NCBI GenBank assembly: GCA_947377865.1
Contig: CANCHK010000006.1
Location: 1 to 64,000 of the forward strand
Origin: Opitutia bacterium
Lineage (GTDB): Bacteria > Verrucomicrobiota > Verrucomicrobiia > Opitutales > UBA953
Length of the DNA: 64,000 nucleotides
Reading direction: 5' to 3'
The number at the start of each line of letters is the position of its first letter. Position 1 is the stretch's first letter. Shown in pieces: positions 33,159 to 42,645 of this stretch. The notes beneath the pieces were generated by a model. That model worked only from the letters and a program-made list of their open reading frames with translations. It ran no database searches and had not been told where the DNA came from. A program made the position numbers and the translations under genes.

Positions 33159-34009
33159 CAACGCAACGGCAGGCTTTGTTCATCAGTTTCCTGGCGGTGG
33201 CTGGCTTCTTTGGTCTACGTGCCTTACCGGATACCCAGTGCGCTTTCCTGCACGCAGATCATCAGCCGGTGATCGTCGACGGCGTCGAATTCTGCGGTAT
33301 TAACGAAGAGGCCAATTTCTATTCTCCGAAGGCTTTGCAGTTTCCGGTCGAGCTTAAGGTCGAACTCTCGGCCGACGGAACCAAGGGTGAGCTGCGGCTC
33401 ATTAAGGACGACGGCCAGCCCTACTACGGCCACGAAATCGCCGTATCCCACACGCAGAAGGTGCATCTCCATCTCCGTCAGTTCGGCGGTGCCCGCGCCT
33501 ATGCGCACCTGCATCCTATGCCGGGTGACGATGGCATCTGGCGTTTCGACCTGCCGGCTAAGCTTCGTGGCTCCGCCTTAGAAGCCTACGTGGACTTCGC
33601 GGATCTGCGGACTTCGCGCGTCATGCTAGCACAGGCCGCTATCCCGGCCGTATCGATCTTCGACGGGTTCGTCCTTCATTCCCGCAACGCCATCGTGTCG
33701 ATGGAGGCGTCGACGTATAAGTCAGGAGAATCCGCCACTTTGCGCCTCAGGCTTTCCGGACCGGAAGGTAAGCCGCTTAAGCTGCTTCCGATCATGGGCT
33801 CGTTAGGGCATGCCGTGGTTTTCTCGGTCGATAAGCCCGCCGCTGGCTATGCGCATATGCATCCCACGCTCGAGGGCGGCGAGTATGCGTCTAATCCGAC
33901 GCTATCCTTCCGTCTGCGTCTACCTCCCCCGGGCACTTATGACCTCTGGCTGAACCTCAACGACGGACAGGAGGAGCTCCTGCGCACGACGTTGGTCGTT
34001 ACCCCTTGA
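33155..34009 (+). CDS. Unknown envelope protein with duplicated His-rich domain
   Basis: No named family is certain. The 284-residue protein has one N-terminal hydrophobic segment (ALFISFLAVAGFFGL). Two similar repeats follow. The first has YGHEIAVSHT then AYAHLHPMP (near residues 90-122), and the second has LGHAVVFSVD then GYAHMHPTL (near 210-232). The repeated GH and HxHP pattern suggests a metal-binding beta fold, plausibly for copper, because the gene overlaps the SCO1-like gene by 4 bp. Its end overlaps the convergent epimerase gene by 11 bp. Confidence 0.6.
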   Translation: MTTQRQALFISFLAVAGFFGLRALPDTQCAFLHADHQPVIVDGVEFCGINEEANFYSPKALQFPVELKVELSADGTKGELRLIKDDGQPYYGHEIAVSHTQKVHLHLRQFGGARAYAHLHPMPGDDGIWRFDLPAKLRGSALEAYVDFADLRTSRVMLAQAAIPAVSIFDGFVLHSRNAIVSMEASTYKSGESATLRLRLSGPEGKPLKLLPIMGSLGHAVVFSVDKPAAGYAHMHPTLEGGEYASNPTLSFRLRLPPPGTYDLWLNLNDGQEELLRTTLVVTP

Positions 34010-34925
34010 TCTGACGGAAATATTCTACCGTCTCGGCCAGTCCGGTGCTGACCGAAGACTGCGGTTTCCAGCCGGTGGCGAGGAGGCGCCCGGTCGATGC
34101 CAGCGAATGGCGGACGTCGCCGGCACGAGGCAGCAGGTGTTCGATCTTAGATCTCGAGCTGGTGAGCTGGATAATCTCCTGCGCGAGTGCGAGGATCGAC
34201 TGGCTCTGGCCATAGCCGACGTTGTAGGTGCCAGCCATGTCCTTGGAGGCTCCGGCATAGGCGAGGGCACCGACGATATCGGTCACATGGATGAAGTCGC
34301 GGGTCTGGCCACCGTCGCCATGGATGCCAATCGGTTCATTGCGTAGAGCTTTCGCGATGAAGATGGGGACGGCGGCAGCGTAGGCGGAGCGAGGGTCCTG
34401 TCGCGGCCCGAAGACGTTGAAGAAGCGCAGGCTCGTGGTGCCGAGGCCGTGAGCTTGGCGGTATTGTTCGAGCAATTGTTCGCCGGCGAGCTTGGTCTCG
34501 GCGTAGGGAGATTTCGGCTCTGGCGGCATCGATTCGAGCTTCGGTACCGTCGGATTGTCGCCGTAGATGGCGGCGGAAGACGCCAAGACGACCCTCCGAG
34601 CGCCGGCAGCTAAGGCGGCGGCGAGCACACGATGCGTGCCTTCGGTGTTCAGTTCGGCGCACTCGGTCGGTTTGGCGACGGATTCCGGCACCGAGATCAT
34701 CGCGGCGAGGTGGTAGACCTCCTCGGCCCCCGCGATGGCTTTTGACAAGGCGGTTGCGTCGAGGATGGAGCCTTGCAGGAAGCGGCAACGGACGCCTTCT
34801 AGGTTGCTGGCATACCCGCTCCTCAGGTCGTCGAGCACCGTCACTTCGGCATACTCGGCGAAGTGGCGCGCTAAATGTGAGCCGATGAACCCGGCGCCGC
34901 CGGTGATAAGCACGCGTTTACTCAT
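33999..34925 (-). CDS. NAD-dependent nucleotide-sugar epimerase (GalE-like)
   Basis: The protein has 308 residues of the extended SDR family. The NAD motif is TGGAGFIGSHLARHF, with the catalytic SSAAIYG and YAETK (Tyr-x-x-x-Lys). Members interconvert UDP-glucose/galactose or UDP-GlcNAc/GalNAc. Its place after the NahK-type kinase and a nucleotidyltransferase suggests the N-acetylated substrates. It overlaps the kinase gene by 4 bp and is last in the valS-headed run. Confidence 0.88.
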   Translation of the reverse strand: MSKRVLITGGAGFIGSHLARHFAEYAEVTVLDDLRSGYASNLEGVRCRFLQGSILDATALSKAIAGAEEVYHLAAMISVPESVAKPTECAELNTEGTHRVLAAALAAGARRVVLASSAAIYGDNPTVPKLESMPPEPKSPYAETKLAGEQLLEQYRQAHGLGTTSLRFFNVFGPRQDPRSAYAAAVPIFIAKALRNEPIGIHGDGGQTRDFIHVTDIVGALAYAGASKDMAGTYNVGYGQSQSILALAQEIIQLTSSRSKIEHLLPRAGDVRHSLASTGRLLATGWKPQSSVSTGLAETVEYFRQIKG

Positions 34926-36031
34926 GCGCTTGTGACCAGCGCCTGCATGGCGGGCAGCTGGGCTTCGATGGATTCGACTAGTTTGAACTGGGTACGTGCA
35001 CGGTCGAGGTTGTGTGATGGCCGCTTGATCTTAAAGTAGATGTCGCCTTCGAGCCAGTCGGTCAGGAAGCGTAGCCCGATTTCGAAGGTGATGAGTTTGC
35101 CGGCGAAGGGCAGGAGTTCTTTCTCTTTAGGCGTCAGGAAGACCCTGGTGGATTCGAGGTATCCTTTGATCAGGGCCTCGAACAGGGGAAGTTGCATTCT
35201 GACCTTGGAGAGATCTGTTTCGTCCTCTGCGGCTGGCGAGGTCGACGTGCGCACGAGGTCGCCAAAATCATAAAGCACCGAGCCGGGCATGACCGTGTCG
35301 AGGTCGATGACGCAGACGCCTTCCTGGGTGACGTCGTCGAGCAGGACGTTGTTCAGCTTGGTGTCATTGTGCGTCACGCGTTCAGGGAGGGAGCCATCGC
35401 GCAAGGCGTCGACGACCACGCTGACTTCGTGGGCGCGGGCTAAGGCGAAGGCGATTTCAGGTACGGCGAGAGCGGCCCGGCCATGGTCGTCCTTCGCTAA
35501 GGCCTGCTGGAAGCGGGCGAAGCGTGAGGGGGTGTGATGAAAGTCGGGGATGGTCTCGTGGAGTCGGCCACCGGGAAGGTCGGCGAGCAGGGCTTGGAAT
35601 GCGCCGAACGATTTTGCCGCAGCGTAAGCTTGTTTGGGTGAGCGGACGATATCATGCCCGGTGGCGCCTTCGATGAAATGGTAGCAGCGCCAGCGATTGC
35701 CCGCGTTATCGACGAGCCAAGCCTTGCCTGTGCGGGTCGGGATGAGGCGCAGCGTGCGTCGATCGGCGTCGGAGACGCCCGCATGCTTAAGTTTGGCGTA
35801 GGCATGGGCGCAGACGCGCTCCACGTTGGCCATGAGCTCGTCCGGTCGGTGGAAGACGTTGTGGTTAATGCGTTGGAGTACGTAGCGGCTAGGACCGCCG
35901 TCGGGCTTTACGTCTACCTTGAAGGTATCGTTGATATGGCCGCTGCCGTAGGGGGAGGCCGATACGATTTCACCGGAGAGCGAGAATGCCCGGGCGATCG
36001 TGACGGCGTCATATCCTGCGGTGCCGGACAT
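34922..36031 (-). CDS. N-acetylhexosamine 1-kinase (NahK-like)
   Basis: The protein has 369 residues of the phosphotransferase (APH) fold. Stretches closely resemble bifidobacterial NahK as I recall it: ASPYGSGHINDTF, RYVLQRINHNVF, the catalytic VTHNDTKLNNVL, VIDLDTVMPGSVLYDFGD, and FLTDWLEGDIYF near the C-terminus. NahK phosphorylates GlcNAc and GalNAc at O1. The ATG at 36031 starts at the family N-terminus; upstream in-frame sequence overlaps the previous gene. The spacing of 2 bp to the nucleotidyltransferase and 4-bp overlap with galE argue for one pathway. Confidence 0.88.
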   Translation of the reverse strand: MSGTAGYDAVTIARAFSLSGEIVSASPYGSGHINDTFKVDVKPDGGPSRYVLQRINHNVFHRPDELMANVERVCAHAYAKLKHAGVSDADRRTLRLIPTRTGKAWLVDNAGNRWRCYHFIEGATGHDIVRSPKQAYAAAKSFGAFQALLADLPGGRLHETIPDFHHTPSRFARFQQALAKDDHGRAALAVPEIAFALARAHEVSVVVDALRDGSLPERVTHNDTKLNNVLLDDVTQEGVCVIDLDTVMPGSVLYDFGDLVRTSTSPAAEDETDLSKVRMQLPLFEALIKGYLESTRVFLTPKEKELLPFAGKLITFEIGLRFLTDWLEGDIYFKIKRPSHNLDRARTQFKLVESIEAQLPAMQALVTSA

Positions 36032-36033
36032 CG

Positions 36034-36939
36034 TCAGGCCCAGAGGGAAGGTGGGTAGGCGCCGCTGCTCACCTGCTGGCTGATGCTGGCTTGAACGACG
36101 GGCTTGTCTTCGCGGTAGGTCACTCCGAACCAGGTGGAATCGGAGCGCAGCACCTGACAACTTGCCTGTCCGGCGCGGATGAGGCTGCCGACGGACATCG
36201 GGATGTAGGACTCGCTTTTCATCTCGGATCCTTTGGCGGTCAGGAAGGCTCGGAAGTCGGCCTCGAGCTGGGGGAAGATTGCTGGCGTGAAGCCCCACAT
36301 GTTCATCGATACCGGTTCGTTTCCAGTTAGTGGCACGCCGACACCGTCCTCGCCGCGATGTTCGGCGCCATTCGCCAGCTTTGAGATCTTCGTCAGCTCT
36401 TGGATGTCGGTCAGCTTGCCGGTGGAATCGGTCTGGCAGACGCCGCGGGCGACGGTGCCATGTTCCGAGAGGGTGTTCTTGAGGGTGAACCCGACCATCG
36501 CGTAGGCCTTTGAATCGTTGGTCAGCGCTGAGAGATAGCGGCCGAGCGTCGCGTAGGAGTCGCGGCCGTAGAAATCGTCGGCGTTGATGACTGCGAAGGG
36601 CGTATGGACAGCGTCACGGGCGCAGAGAATAGCGTGGGTCGTGCCCCAGGGTTTTTCTCGACCGGTCGGGACCGTGAAGCCTACCGGCAGTTGGTCGATC
36701 GTCTGAAAGGCGAAGCCTACGTCGATACGCCCGGTGAACTTTGCGGCAATACGGTCGCGGAAGTCTTTCTCGAAGTCAGGACGGATGATGAACACCACCT
36801 TGCCGAAGCCGGCACGGATCGCATCGAAGACTGAGTAGTCGAGGATGGTTTCGCCGGACGGACCCATCGGGTCAATCTGCTTCAGGCCGCCGTAACGGCT
36901 GCCCATTCCGGCGGCGAGGACGAGGAGAGTCGGTTTCAT
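36034..36939 (-). CDS. Sugar-1-phosphate nucleotidyltransferase
   Basis: The protein has 301 residues. The nucleotide-binding start VLAAGMGSRYGGLKQ is the NTP_transferase signature, and INADDFYG holds the catalytic metal Asp. It joins a sugar 1-phosphate to a nucleoside triphosphate. Placed between a NahK-type kinase and a GalE-like epimerase, the natural reading is HexNAc-1-phosphate plus UTP to UDP-HexNAc, but the nucleotide and sugar cannot be proven from motifs. 1 bp after the PIG-L gene. Confidence 0.85.
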   Translation of the reverse strand: MKPTLLVLAAGMGSRYGGLKQIDPMGPSGETILDYSVFDAIRAGFGKVVFIIRPDFEKDFRDRIAAKFTGRIDVGFAFQTIDQLPVGFTVPTGREKPWGTTHAILCARDAVHTPFAVINADDFYGRDSYATLGRYLSALTNDSKAYAMVGFTLKNTLSEHGTVARGVCQTDSTGKLTDIQELTKISKLANGAEHRGEDGVGVPLTGNEPVSMNMWGFTPAIFPQLEADFRAFLTAKGSEMKSESYIPMSVGSLIRAGQASCQVLRSDSTWFGVTYREDKPVVQASISQQVSSGAYPPSLWA

Positions 36940-36940
36940 G

Positions 36941-37789
36941 TCAGAGGGATTTTCGGATGCGGGCGGAGACGTCGGCCTTCAGGCGGTCGATGAATCCGAC
37001 CGTATAGGCGAGAGAATCAAGGGTTTCATCTTGAATGAGAGGGGTCAGGTCCATCGCCCACTGCATGGCCGATTCTTGATCGGTCGAATGCGCGTTGCTG
37101 AAGGTCGCGTTGGCCGTGCGGCGTCCGAGGACAGCTAGGTCGTAGCGCTTGCCCCCGGCGATCTGGGTGGCGAAGACCTCGTTGAGGGCGCGGGCCAGTT
37201 CCGGGTGGGCCGAGATCGGCATCGCGGTCTTTTCGCTATCCACGAGCCAGTCAAGGTCGCGCCATACTTCGCAACCATAGACCATCTTAGGTCGATCCGC
37301 TTTGGCCATCTGGCGCATGGCTTCGATGCACCGGAGTGCGCAGCCGACGTGCGTGTCGTGCTTGTCGGCGAGGTTATGCAGGTAGACGACCTCGGGGTGG
37401 CTGGCTTCGAGAATGCGGCGGAGGTCGTCGCGGACGGTGGTCTGCTGGGAGTCGCGGACAGCCGCGCTGCCGAAGCCCAGTTGGGCGATGAAGGAGTACT
37501 GGCCGATGACGGCGGCGGCTTCCTGTTCGCGGATGCGTTCGGCGGCAATCTGATCGTCGGTCCAGTCCTTAAACTGGCCAGCACGGGAACTTCCCCGTCC
37601 ATCAGTGATGGTCACCCCGCCGAACCATCGATCGGTGCGATTGTAGCAGGCAAGGATCCCGTGGAATGCCATGAACTCTAGGTCATCTTGGTGGGCGCCG
37701 ATGCCGAGGTGCGTCGTGCGGCTTAGGGCGCCCAGTCCGGTCTCGCCGTCCGGAGTCACGATGCGTGCGAGAGGGTTGAGTGAGATCAT
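36941..37789 (-). CDS. PIG-L (LmbE-like) family deacetylase
   Basis: The protein has 282 residues. The zinc motif is GAHQDDLEF (His33, Asp36, a variant of AHPDDE), and the second zinc His lies in LADKHDTHV. PIG-L enzymes remove the acetyl group from GlcNAc-containing molecules. There is no signal peptide, so it acts in the cytoplasm. The gene overlaps the sugar-kinase gene by 4 bp and stands between it and the nucleotidyltransferase, with nagB two genes upstream. I infer GlcNAc-6-phosphate or a related sugar as substrate. Confidence 0.85.
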   Translation of the reverse strand: MISLNPLARIVTPDGETGLGALSRTTHLGIGAHQDDLEFMAFHGILACYNRTDRWFGGVTITDGRGSSRAGQFKDWTDDQIAAERIREQEAAAVIGQYSFIAQLGFGSAAVRDSQQTTVRDDLRRILEASHPEVVYLHNLADKHDTHVGCALRCIEAMRQMAKADRPKMVYGCEVWRDLDWLVDSEKTAMPISAHPELARALNEVFATQIAGGKRYDLAVLGRRTANATFSNAHSTDQESAMQWAMDLTPLIQDETLDSLAYTVGFIDRLKADVSARIRKSL

Positions 37790-39171
37790 CGGCTGAGGGC
37801 GGGAAGGGAGGCGGCGGCGATGGCCTGGCCATGACGCTTATCTTTCTCGCCCGGAACGACGAGGTCGATGCGAAGTTCTGGGAATTCTTCCCGCAGGATC
37901 ATCCTGGCCTTGTCGATGATGAGTGTGCCGCCCTGACCGGAGGTGACACGCCCCATCATTAACAGGCACCCTATCTCATAGAAGCTGGCGAAATGGGCGA
38001 TCGCGTAACCAAAGGCGATGCCGATGGCTTCGTAGACCTGTTGTGCTCTCGGGTCATGGGAGAGAATCAGCCTCTGCAGTTCTTCGAGCTGCTCGGGTAG
38101 GCGCATCGAGGCGGGCAGGGTGATGCCAGCAAGAGGGAGCAGGCGGCCGACGCCTTGTTGGCTGAAGTATTGCACTGCGCAGCCGCGATCGCCGGACCAC
38201 TCATCTGCCGGGCCGTCCGGGCGATAATCCACAGGCACGAAGGCCAGCTCGCTCAGCCAGTTGGTAAGGCTGCCTGCCGTATCGACATACCCAGCTGCCA
38301 CGCTGGTTCCCATGGCAACACCGAGAACGGCATTACGCCCTAGGGACATCGAGCCTGCCAGGGCGGTGACGTCGCCGTCGTTCAGGACTTCGAACGGTAC
38401 GCCGTAGGATTTTGCGAGGTCTAGGAAGATATCACGTACCTGAGAGTCGAAGAGGGAGGCGTCCGTGATTCCGCGGAAGAGCGATGCGACTCTCACCTTA
38501 TTGTTCACGTAGACGCCAGCGGAAGAGCCCCCGATGGCGTCGACACGGGGTAGATGGCTGGCGGCGAGATTCAATGAATGACGAATGCCGGCGAGATGGT
38601 AGGCCGGGTCGGACTGGAAATAAGGATCCCATTTCACTTCCTCGGAGAAGACGACCTTGCCATCGATGAGCGCGGCACACTTGCGGTCGGATCCGCCTAG
38701 GTCGAAACCGATGCGACACCCGTCTAGGTTGCGTCCGAGCGGGAGGTGGGCGGAGACGGCTTCCGGAAGTTCAGAGATTTCGATCGCACGGAATGAAAGC
38801 GGCCGCTCAAAGACCTTACGGAGGAAGTCGGCGTCGAAGGCCCGACAGCCCGACGAAGAGTAGTCAGCTTGCAGGCGAAAGGCGAGGTGGGTGGCTTCCG
38901 GTCCGCAGAGTAGGATGTCCGGGGCACCGCGCGACCAGAGCAGGAACTTCACCGTGCGTTCGACGTGAAGATAGGTCGCATCGTCGTCGACTCCGCTTGC
39001 CAGTACCTGTGTGCGAAATAGCGAGGCGGTGCCATCGTCTCGCCGTAGGGCAATCGTGAGTTCGGATGAGCCAGCCGTCGCCGCGCAACGGCGCAGGTAG
39101 GCGCGGGTCCAGAGGGCGGCAGGAACGAGGCCCGGGTCGATGGCGGAGCGATGGCGAGGGGCGACGTCCAT
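37786..39171 (-). CDS. ROK/BadF-like sugar kinase, possible N-acetylhexosamine kinase
   Basis: The protein has 461 residues from the ATG at 39171. The ASKHA phosphate-1 motif IGFDLGGSDRKCAALIDG lies near residue 165, and LGVAMGTSVAAGYVD near 295 is the second phosphate loop. The first ~150 residues form an extra N-terminal domain not found in compact ROK kinases. The neighbours nagB (8 bp upstream) and PIG-L (4-bp overlap) suggest phosphorylation of GlcNAc or another amino sugar at O6. Sugar identity is inferred from context only. Confidence 0.7.
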   Translation of the reverse strand: MDVAPRHRSAIDPGLVPAALWTRAYLRRCAATAGSSELTIALRRDDGTASLFRTQVLASGVDDDATYLHVERTVKFLLWSRGAPDILLCGPEATHLAFRLQADYSSSGCRAFDADFLRKVFERPLSFRAIEISELPEAVSAHLPLGRNLDGCRIGFDLGGSDRKCAALIDGKVVFSEEVKWDPYFQSDPAYHLAGIRHSLNLAASHLPRVDAIGGSSAGVYVNNKVRVASLFRGITDASLFDSQVRDIFLDLAKSYGVPFEVLNDGDVTALAGSMSLGRNAVLGVAMGTSVAAGYVDTAGSLTNWLSELAFVPVDYRPDGPADEWSGDRGCAVQYFSQQGVGRLLPLAGITLPASMRLPEQLEELQRLILSHDPRAQQVYEAIGIAFGYAIAHFASFYEIGCLLMMGRVTSGQGGTLIIDKARMILREEFPELRIDLVVPGEKDKRHGQAIAAASLPALSR

Positions 39172-39179
39172 CGGGCTGG

Positions 39180-39920
39180 TCAAAGAGCCTTGGCGGCAGC
39201 CGCGTCGAGGTGGAACGTGCAATGGGGGTGCTTCTGCAGCCAGGTAGCGGGACAGTGGGCGGAAGGTGTCTCTTGGATCGCCCGACGGATGACGTCGGCC
39301 TTGGCTTCGCCAAAGGCGATGAGTTCGACTCGGCGAGCCTCGAGGATCGTAGCGACACCCATCGTCAGGGCGCCATGGGGCACTAGGGCGATGTCGCCGA
39401 AGAAGGCCGAGTTGTCGCGACGGGTCACCTCATCGAGGTGGACCCAGCGGGTGCGGGTGTCGACGGCGGAGGGTGGTTCATTGAAACCGATGTGGCCCGT
39501 GCGGCCTATGCCGAGAATCTGGAGATCGATTCCGCCGACGGCACGGATGGCCGCTTCGTAGTCGGTGCAATTCTTTGCCAGATCTTTCGACAGACCGTCA
39601 GGAATATGGATATTGGCCGCGGGAATATCCAGATGACGGAAAAGATTTTCCTCCATGAAGAACCGGTACGATTGCGGATGCGTCGCGCCGAGGCCTTCGT
39701 ACTCATCGAGATTAAAGGTGATGACTGAACTAAAACTCAGCTTTTCCTCGCGGTGGAGACGGATGAGCTCGGCGTAAAGCGGCAGAGGCGTAGAGCCCGT
39801 CGCCAATCCTAGCACCGTTGGCTTGCCCGATTTCGAGCGTATCTCAATTAGGTCGGCAATCTCCCGGGCAATCGCCTGCGCGGCGGTTTGTTTGTCGGGA
39901 TGAAGCCTGGTCGCGATCAT
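39180..39920 (-). CDS. nagB: Glucosamine-6-phosphate deaminase
   Basis: The protein has 246 residues. VLGLATGSTPLPLYAEL binds the phosphate, and FNLDEYEG and GIGRTGHIGFNEP hold the catalytic Asp, His and Glu of NagB. It converts glucosamine-6-phosphate to fructose-6-phosphate and ammonia. The ATG at 39920 lies one base after the valS stop; an in-frame ATG at 39938 would overlap valS. No nagA-type deacetylase is near, but a PIG-L gene is. Confidence 0.94.
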   Translation of the reverse strand: MIATRLHPDKQTAAQAIAREIADLIEIRSKSGKPTVLGLATGSTPLPLYAELIRLHREEKLSFSSVITFNLDEYEGLGATHPQSYRFFMEENLFRHLDIPAANIHIPDGLSKDLAKNCTDYEAAIRAVGGIDLQILGIGRTGHIGFNEPPSAVDTRTRWVHLDEVTRRDNSAFFGDIALVPHGALTMGVATILEARRVELIAFGEAKADVIRRAIQETPSAHCPATWLQKHPHCTFHLDAAAAKAL

Positions 39921-39921
39921 C

Positions 39922-42645
39922 TTAGCCGAGCGTGGCAATCATGCGCGCAATCTCATCGCGCTTGGCTTTAGCGTCATCGAGCTGCTTGCGGGCGCCTTCA
40001 AGGATCTTAGGCGGGGCTTTTGAGACGAAAGCTTCGTTGGTCAATTTGGCTTCGCCCGCGGCGACTGCCTGTTCGAGCTTGATGAGTTCCTTGGCGAGGC
40101 GGATCTTCTCGGCGGCGACGTCGACCGTGCCGGAGAGTTCGAGTAAGACGGTGCCGAGTGAGTTGAGTGAACCGGTACGGTCGCCGGCATCGTCGGCAAA
40201 GGTGATTTCGGCCAGACCGGCCATGCTGCTGAGCTTATCGCTGTTCGACTGGAGGAGGGCTTTCGCCGTGGCGTCCTTGGCGACAATCGTGATGACCGAA
40301 TCGCGGCGGGTCGCCTGGTTGGCTTGCGACTTGAGGCCGCGGACCGAGGCGACGAATTCGCGGAGGAGGGCGACATCGGCGACCTTGGCGGCGCTGAGCT
40401 TGATGCCGTTTTCGCGAAGGACGCGGAGAAGATCGCCGCCGGAGCCGGTGTGGTGGTTCTGGATAAAATCCTTTTCTGCGCCATAGCCAAGCAGGTGCCA
40501 GAGTTCTTCGGAGATGAACGGAGCGACCGGGTGGAGCAGCAGGAGGAACTGTCGCAGTACGAGATCTTGCACCGCGAGGCAATTATCGACGAGGGCGGGG
40601 TCCTTAAGGCGAGCCTTCGAGGCTTCGACGTACCAGTCGCAGAAGTCGCCCCAAAAGAAGGAGTACAGTCCCTGCGCGTAGGCGGTGAACTCGTGCTCGT
40701 CCAAGTTCTTGGTCGTGCTGTCGGTCAGTTCGGCGAGGCCTTGGAGGATGGCGAAGTCGTCGTCATCGAGTTGGGAGGCCTTGATGCGGCTGACGACAGC
40801 GGCGAGCGTCGAGTTGTCGGCCATCGGGCCAGACATCTGGCGGAAGCGGGCAGCATTCCAGAGCTTGTTGCAGAAGTTGCGTCCTTGGCTGACGCGATCT
40901 TCGTCGAAGAGGATATCCTGGCCCTTGGGGGCGATGGATAGCAGGCCGAAGCGGAGGCCGTCGGCGCCGAACTTCGCGATCAGGTCGAGGGGCTCGGGAG
41001 AGTTGCCCAGTGACTTGGACATCTTGCGTCCGAGCTTGTCGCGGATGATGCCGTTGAAATAGACGCGCTTGAACGGGATGCGCTGACGGATCTCGTCATC
41101 GGTGAGCGTCTTCTTCTCGGGGCCGTGAAGTTCGAGGCCTGCGATGATCATGCGGGCAACCCAGAGGAAGATGATGTCGGGGCCGGTCGCGAGGGCGCCA
41201 GTCGGATACCAATGCTTCAGTTCTTCAGTCGTCTCTCCGGGCCTGCGCCAACCGATGGTCGCCAGGCACCAGAGCCAGGAGGAAGCCCACGTGTCGAGCA
41301 CATCGGGGTCCTGTTCCCAGTTGGCGGCATCTGCTGGGGCCGTGAGGGAGACGTGCAGGTTCTTCGGGTCGTTACGGTCGGCGCCCTTGCGGTACCAGAC
41401 CGGGATGCGGTGGCCCCACCAGAGCTGGCGGCTGACGCACCAATCCTGGATATTCTCCAGCCAGTGGAGGTAGGTCTTCGTCCAGCGTTCTGGGTGGAAC
41501 TTGATGATGCCCGACGTGACGGCCCGCTTAGCTTCGTCGATCTTTGGGTAGCGGATGAACCACTGTTCGCTGAGGCGAGGTTCGATCGGAACGTCGGCGC
41601 GTTCCGAATAACCTACCGTGTTCTCATAAGGTTCGGTCTTCACGAGGGCACCGAGTTCCTCGAGGAGTTTTTCGGCCATACCGCGTGCCTTGAAGCGTTC
41701 CACGCCGGCGAGCGGACCCGCGTCGGCGTTCATCGTGCCATCCGGGTTCATCACGTCGACTACCGGAAGGTTATGGCGCTTGCCGATGTCGAAGTCGGTG
41801 CGGTCGTGAGCCGGCGTGACCTTGAGGACGCCCGTGCCGAACTCCTTCTCGACGGCGGTGTCGCCGACAATCGGGATCTGGGCGCGAGGGAAGGGGCGCC
41901 AGACGTGCTTGCCGATGAGGTGCTTGTAGCGTTCGTCGTCAGGGTGGACCGCTACGGCGGCGTCGCCTGGGATGGTCTCGGGGCGCGTGGTGGAGATCTC
42001 GAGGAATGTGCCCGGGATCTCGGCGACCTCGTAACGCATGCGGTAGAGTGAGCCCTTAGAGGGCTTCATAATCACCTCTTCGTCGGAAAGGCCGGTCTGC
42101 GAGACCGGGCACCAGTTGACCATGCGCTTGCCGCGATAAACGTAGCCGCGTTCGTAAAGGGTGACGAAGGTCTGCAGGACTGCCTGCGAATAGCCGGCGT
42201 CGAGGGTATGGACCGTGCGATCCCAATCGCAGGAGGCACCAAGTTTACGGAGCTGACCAAGGATGATGCCGCCATGTTTGTCGCGCCACTCGGACGCGAC
42301 TTGAATGAATTTTTCGCGACCGAGGTCGTGGCGAGTCTTGCCTTCCTTCTGACGGAGTTCCTTTTCGACGCGGGACTGCGTGGCGATGCCTGCATGGTCG
42401 GTACCCGGGAGCCAGAGCGCGGATTTGCCTTCTTGGCGGGCGCGTCGGACCATGATGTCCTGCAGCGTGTTATTGAGCAGGTGTCCCATGTGTAGGACGC
42501 CCGTCACGTTCGGCGGCGGGATCATGACCGCGAACGACTCGCGGGTGTGGTCTACCTTGCCCTTGAAGCAACCGGCCGCGACCCAGCGGTCGTACCACTG
42601 CTGTTCGACGCCTTGCGGTTCATAAGATTTGGGGATTTCGGCCAT
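39922..42645 (-). CDS. valS: Valyl-tRNA synthetase
   Basis: The protein is full length at 907 residues. The class I signatures are PPNVTGVLHMGHLLN (HIGH-type) and KMSKSLGNSPEP. The C-terminal ~65 residues form the tRNA-binding coiled coil (KIRLAKELIKLEQ). It charges tRNA-Val and has an editing domain in mid-protein. It is the first gene of a run that continues without a gap into nagB and the amino-sugar genes, and it is divergent from the SRP RNA gene. Confidence 0.98.
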   Translation of the reverse strand: MAEIPKSYEPQGVEQQWYDRWVAAGCFKGKVDHTRESFAVMIPPPNVTGVLHMGHLLNNTLQDIMVRRARQEGKSALWLPGTDHAGIATQSRVEKELRQKEGKTRHDLGREKFIQVASEWRDKHGGIILGQLRKLGASCDWDRTVHTLDAGYSQAVLQTFVTLYERGYVYRGKRMVNWCPVSQTGLSDEEVIMKPSKGSLYRMRYEVAEIPGTFLEISTTRPETIPGDAAVAVHPDDERYKHLIGKHVWRPFPRAQIPIVGDTAVEKEFGTGVLKVTPAHDRTDFDIGKRHNLPVVDVMNPDGTMNADAGPLAGVERFKARGMAEKLLEELGALVKTEPYENTVGYSERADVPIEPRLSEQWFIRYPKIDEAKRAVTSGIIKFHPERWTKTYLHWLENIQDWCVSRQLWWGHRIPVWYRKGADRNDPKNLHVSLTAPADAANWEQDPDVLDTWASSWLWCLATIGWRRPGETTEELKHWYPTGALATGPDIIFLWVARMIIAGLELHGPEKKTLTDDEIRQRIPFKRVYFNGIIRDKLGRKMSKSLGNSPEPLDLIAKFGADGLRFGLLSIAPKGQDILFDEDRVSQGRNFCNKLWNAARFRQMSGPMADNSTLAAVVSRIKASQLDDDDFAILQGLAELTDSTTKNLDEHEFTAYAQGLYSFFWGDFCDWYVEASKARLKDPALVDNCLAVQDLVLRQFLLLLHPVAPFISEELWHLLGYGAEKDFIQNHHTGSGGDLLRVLRENGIKLSAAKVADVALLREFVASVRGLKSQANQATRRDSVITIVAKDATAKALLQSNSDKLSSMAGLAEITFADDAGDRTGSLNSLGTVLLELSGTVDVAAEKIRLAKELIKLEQAVAAGEAKLTNEAFVSKAPPKILEGARKQLDDAKAKRDEIARMIATLG

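Follow-up and report, generated by a model that had tools for sequence, protein, structure and literature searches.

Which enzyme could remove the acetyl group in an operon that carries a sugar kinase and nagB was the question raised by this locus. A preliminary description of the window, i.e., the whole 64,000-nucleotide stretch of DNA that was analysed, had regarded a cytoplasmic PIG-L enzyme with His33 and Asp36, encoded between the sugar kinase and a nucleotidyltransferase, as a stand-in for NagA. The position of the gene, both residues and the presence of nagB were borne out by the analysis. Moreover, no NagA-type gene was found in the cluster, as had been claimed, or in the rest of the 64-kb window, and the sole match in the genome was located on another contig. 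The PIG-L protein would act in a GlcNAc route together with the kinase and NagB, as an alternative to NagA; the probability of this reading as a whole was put at about 0.6.

The PIG-L protein and its operon

The PIG-L gene opens with an ATG codon, and its product scored 48.6 bits against PF02585, for which the gathering score is 28.2. The HXDD motif and a distal metal-binding histidine were present, as is typical of the PIG-L/LmbE superfamily, in which HXDD and H supply the metal ligands and base (PMC4101496). The metal and catalytic residues H33, D35, D36, H144 and H147 were invariant across 45 relatives. Basic residues, K214 and R223 among them, are also conserved in the subfamily and might bind the phosphate of the sugar. 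The AlphaFold model of the protein had a pLDDT of 95, and a fold search with this model gave 40 PDB matches at E ≤ 0.001, all of which were LmbE/PIG-L-fold enzymes. They included GalB, BC1534, archaeal diacetylchitobiose deacetylases, BshB, MshB and glycopeptide deacetylases. A sequence search of the PDB gave no matches, and only the fold search was productive. The protein has the PIG-L/LmbE fold with an intact metal motif. It had no NCBIfam match to NagA, and PIG-L was its sole Pfam family; it is thus not an amidohydrolase-type NagA.

No NCBIfam model gave the protein a name. The only matches in this collection were to the bacillithiol deacetylase BshB, at 23-24 bits, which would be the starting point for assigning the protein to bacillithiol synthesis. 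These weak scores were far below the cut-offs of TIGR04000 and TIGR04001 (182-195 bits), and BshC was found in none of the 38 genomes searched, the control genomes being positive. A bacillithiol role was rejected on account of the missing BshC, and the chance that the protein is BshB was considered negligible.

Table 1. Genes of the operon around PIG-L in the window; from nagB to GalE, the start of each gene is its higher coordinate.
Feature	Coordinates	Strand	Evidence
valS, first gene of the chain, neighbour kept in the genus	39922..42645	-	
nagB, glucosamine-6-phosphate deaminase	39180..39920	-	TIGR00502 over cut-off
ROK-fold sugar kinase, proposed N-acetylglucosamine kinase	37786..39171	-	fold matches
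PIG-L/LmbE-type de-N-acetylase (predicted), 282 aa	36941..37789	-	PF02585, invariant residues, AlphaFold model, fold search
Sugar-1-phosphate nucleotidyltransferase, relative of PDB 3pnn	36034..36939	-	E=1e-103
NahK-like N-acetylhexosamine 1-kinase	34922..36031	-	PDB 4wh1, E=2.9e-95
GalE-like NAD-dependent sugar epimerase	33999..34925	-	TIGR01179 175 bits, below cut-off

PIG-L was the fourth gene of a minus-strand chain in the order valS, nagB, ROK-type kinase, PIG-L, nucleotidyltransferase, NahK and GalE (Table 1). From valS to GalE, adjacent genes were separated by no more than 8 nt or overlapped by 4 nt, and the 3' end of the kinase gene overlapped the PIG-L start by 4 nt. NagB, encoded two genes upstream of PIG-L, scored 263 bits against TIGR00502 (cut-off 236.9). 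The fold search for the kinase gave matches to ROK glucokinase, N-acetylmannosamine kinase and GlcNAc kinase. The same operon order was observed in the fetched contigs of genus relatives wherever these were long enough. The downstream genes for the NahK-like kinase, the 3pnn-like nucleotidyltransferase and GalE resemble a pathway for salvaging HexNAc as UDP-HexNAc. A relationship between the nucleotidyltransferase and Amuc_0031, which is a GalY candidate (PMC5583593), is possible.

Neighbours across phyla and NagB–PIG-L fusions

The neighbourhoods of PIG-L were compared across 80 GTDB loci from Verrucomicrobiota, Acidobacteria, Chloroflexi, Armatimonadetes, Clostridia, Acholeplasmataceae and other groups. 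The same kinase was located within 1 kb upstream of PIG-L and on the same strand at 50 of the 79 testable loci. NagB was a partner at 21 of the 80 loci and a SIS-domain protein at 10, and NagA occurred at none of the 80. NagB-II is a SIS-type GlcN-6-P deaminase that is unrelated to NagB. When four of the SIS proteins were compared with NCBIfam, NagB-II was the best model for two of them, the second for one and the third for one; all four NagB-II scores were below the cut-off, and the isomerase half of GlmS ranked alongside. Two unrelated candidate deaminases for one metabolite were therefore found in one position, which indicates GlcN-6-P as the product of the kinase and PIG-L. At one locus (G027), a NagB fusion, the kinase, PIG-L, a GH20 hexosaminidase, an SSS transporter and a NagX-like membrane protein followed one another, and this genome, which was 97% complete, was without nagA. 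At loci of Clostridia, of Chloroflexota and elsewhere (L106, L112, L128, L136, L155 and others), the protein standing in NagB's place beside PIG-L was a SIS-domain relative of NagB-II and of the GlmS isomerase half.

The same comparison bears on whether PIG-L could serve the branch of NahK, the nucleotidyltransferase and GalE, acting on HexNAc-1-phosphate, UDP-HexNAc or GalNAc, with its neighbourhood to NagB and the kinase being secondary. Such an arrangement would suit the Opitutae loci L119, L134, L137, L153 and L164, where the kinase was missing and NahK or the nucleotidyltransferase was close to PIG-L. However, the kinase was the constant partner in most phyla, often together with a GlcN-6-P deaminase, whereas NahK occurred at only 11 and the nucleotidyltransferase at only 10 of the 80 loci. 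This assignment was accordingly rated as improbable.

Fused NagB–PIG-L proteins of Bacteroidetes had been cited in the preliminary description as support for a shared role. The fused family does exist (NF002557), and, as judged by open-frame length, such proteins were present in 21 genomes of the class, 20 of which also had a separate PIG-L. In seven fused proteins (L065, L066, L067, L111, L154, L162 and L172), the metal-binding histidine of HPDD was lost, and the motif was replaced by EPxDD, EPSDE, EPSHD, EPDED or RPDD. A separate intact PIG-L was located near the fused gene at six of these seven loci. From these replacements, the fused PIG-L domain of the examined relatives is probably not an active deacetylase, and it is possibly a pseudo-enzyme domain on NagB. 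The support from fusions for a shared role was considered weak because, in these relatives, the fused PIG-L is catalytically degenerate and belongs to another subgroup.

NagA in the source genome and in the class

The source genome is a MAG with 76% completeness. The preliminary description had implied that nagA was absent from the whole genome, which did not hold, since a NagA-family gene was found on contig C15 (6486-7463, minus strand). It scored 195 bits and so fell short of the NCBI cut-off (225.65). All PDB matches of its product at E ≤ 1e-10 were NagA, the best at 9e-38. The product retains Q59, N61, E131, H143, H195, H216, N219, R227, H251 and D273 of E. coli NagA, which we take to be catalytic and substrate-binding residues, and this set was better retained than in two compared 'full-score' NagAs. 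Because of this retention, the score below the cut-off was no longer counted against the gene, which, judging from its sequence, is probably the nagA of the source genome. A NagA match was found in about half of the genus, and a match of similar strength to that of C15 in at least 12 other members. A second, divergent nagB directly adjoins the C15 gene, without a kinase (L012:6426-8384). With nagA and its own nagB elsewhere in the genome, PIG-L is not a forced substitute for a missing nagA. A functional nagA elsewhere, one of the two points that the preliminary description had set as evidence against its reading (the other being a lack of activity on GlcNAc-6-P), is thus probably present. The stand-in idea was retained as a statement on function, given the pairing of kinase, PIG-L and deaminase across phyla and the genomes without nagA, and was given up as a statement on necessity in this genome.

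Two further observations were made on related loci. In genome G016 (L045 and L075), nagB, nagB2 and nagA were split into several frames, which are probably assembly errors and not pseudogenes. Contig C32 of the source genome has a further PIG-L/NagB-like neighbourhood (L013:453-6445), in which another PIG-L and a highly divergent NagB-like protein are accompanied by a Gfo/Idh oxidoreductase, a metallophosphoesterase, an MFS transporter and a regulator of the AraC type.

The distribution of both deacetylases was evaluated in 141 genomes of the class, each at least 90% complete except the source genome, and any NagA match was counted as presence. PIG-L was found in 64 of them, and NagB1 was missing from 15 of these 64. 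Kinase and NagB occurred together in 65 genomes: 14 (nine families) had PIG-L without NagA, 18 had both, 29 (seven families, the sister genus included) had NagA without PIG-L, and four had neither. The naive anticorrelation between PIG-L and NagA, with any NagA counted and kinship ignored, gave a Fisher p of 1e-4. The presence of PIG-L changed five times on the kinase tree, and a kinship-corrected pair test of PIG-L against NagA, with 4-5 independent changes, was not significant. The phyletic pattern is therefore suggestive, since too few independent changes were left after the correction. Furthermore, PIG-L may have another job, because a probable NagA exists in its own genome and both enzymes were found in 18 genomes of the class. 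Within the genus, all six GH20-positive genomes (G009, G014, G017, G020, G021 and G023) were without nagA, and all 14 nagA-positive genomes were without GH20 (Fisher p=0.003); this split may be a single evolutionary event in one clade. GH20 was not found in the source genome at its 76% completeness.

These genomes also bear on the order of the steps. Deacetylation might come first, with free GlcNAc or a short piece of chitin as the substrate of PIG-L; the kinase, as a glucosamine kinase, would then make GlcN-6-P for NagB, similar to the archaeal Dac route. Archaeal diacetylchitobiose deacetylases and BC1534 were indeed among the closest folds to the PIG-L model, and the tie of PIG-L to the kinase was at least as close as that to NagB. 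Against this order, the kinase family was found with NagB and NagA in the 29 genomes without PIG-L, where GlcNAc-6-P would be needed. In the sister genus (G173), a nagB–kinase pair was accompanied by a NagA over the cut-off and no PIG-L. GlcNAc-6-P was thus favoured as the PIG-L substrate, because the sister-genus kinase would have to feed NagA, and prior deacetylation was considered unlikely, at roughly one chance in four.

Proposed route and its known counterparts

In the preferred reading, with phosphorylation first, the ROK-type kinase would convert GlcNAc to GlcNAc-6-P. PIG-L, as a cytoplasmic metal-dependent de-N-acetylase, would then deacetylate this product to GlcN-6-P, from which NagB would produce fructose-6-P and ammonia. 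NahK, the nucleotidyltransferase and GalE, encoded downstream, would form a parallel salvage branch to UDP-HexNAc. PIG-L would be a non-orthologous alternative to NagA, and in this genome it coexists with the separate nagB–nagA pair. The observed basis consists of the fold, the intact metal motif, the operon, the conserved pairing and the occurrence in genomes without nagA. On this basis, PIG-L is rather likely to be an amino-sugar deacetylase feeding GlcN-6-P formation, an activity that we infer. Its assignment to GlcNAc-6-P specifically, together with the order of the steps, is tentative. A broader proposal, which we would put somewhat below even odds, is that many bacterial phyla share a widespread route for GlcNAc, built on a ROK-type GlcNAc kinase, NagB or NagB-II and a dedicated subfamily of PIG-L proteins that deacetylate GlcNAc-6-P instead of NagA; it would also include a dead fused PIG-L as the non-enzymatic partner of NagB in Verrucomicrobiota.

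PIG-L deacetylases are already known in archaeal amino-sugar catabolism; no report of PIG-L replacing NagA, or of the biochemistry of this subfamily, was found in the open-access papers searched. If the proposal is correct, many genomes judged incapable of using GlcNAc for want of nagA would have a full route. The proposal would also assign a function, and an easy test of it, to a large subgroup of PIG-L proteins, and it would provide a non-orthologous replacement for NagA.

Four known systems are close to the one proposed. The first is the NF002557/PRK02122 fusion, against whose NagB half the window NagB had its best score (313 bits). The window PIG-L gave no match to the PIG-L half, and the window genes are separate. 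The idea that the window PIG-L is a split version of the fusion was rejected, as this match was missing and both forms coexist in 20 of 21 genomes. The second, BshB (PDB 6p2t), shares superfamily and fold with the window PIG-L. Amidohydrolase-type NagA has the same proposed reaction and the same position between kinase and NagB, but its fold and active site are unrelated to those of the LmbE-type window protein. The archaeal Dac enzymes (PDB 8bgn, 3we7 and 4xm1), of which TkDac was reviewed in PMC4101496, have the PIG-L fold, the metal motif and a place in amino-sugar catabolism in common with the window PIG-L; sequence identity in the fold search was 13-17%. The substrate of Dac is the disaccharide GlcNAc2, whereas the partners of the window PIG-L are a ROK-type kinase and NagB or, in relatives, a NagB-II-like protein.
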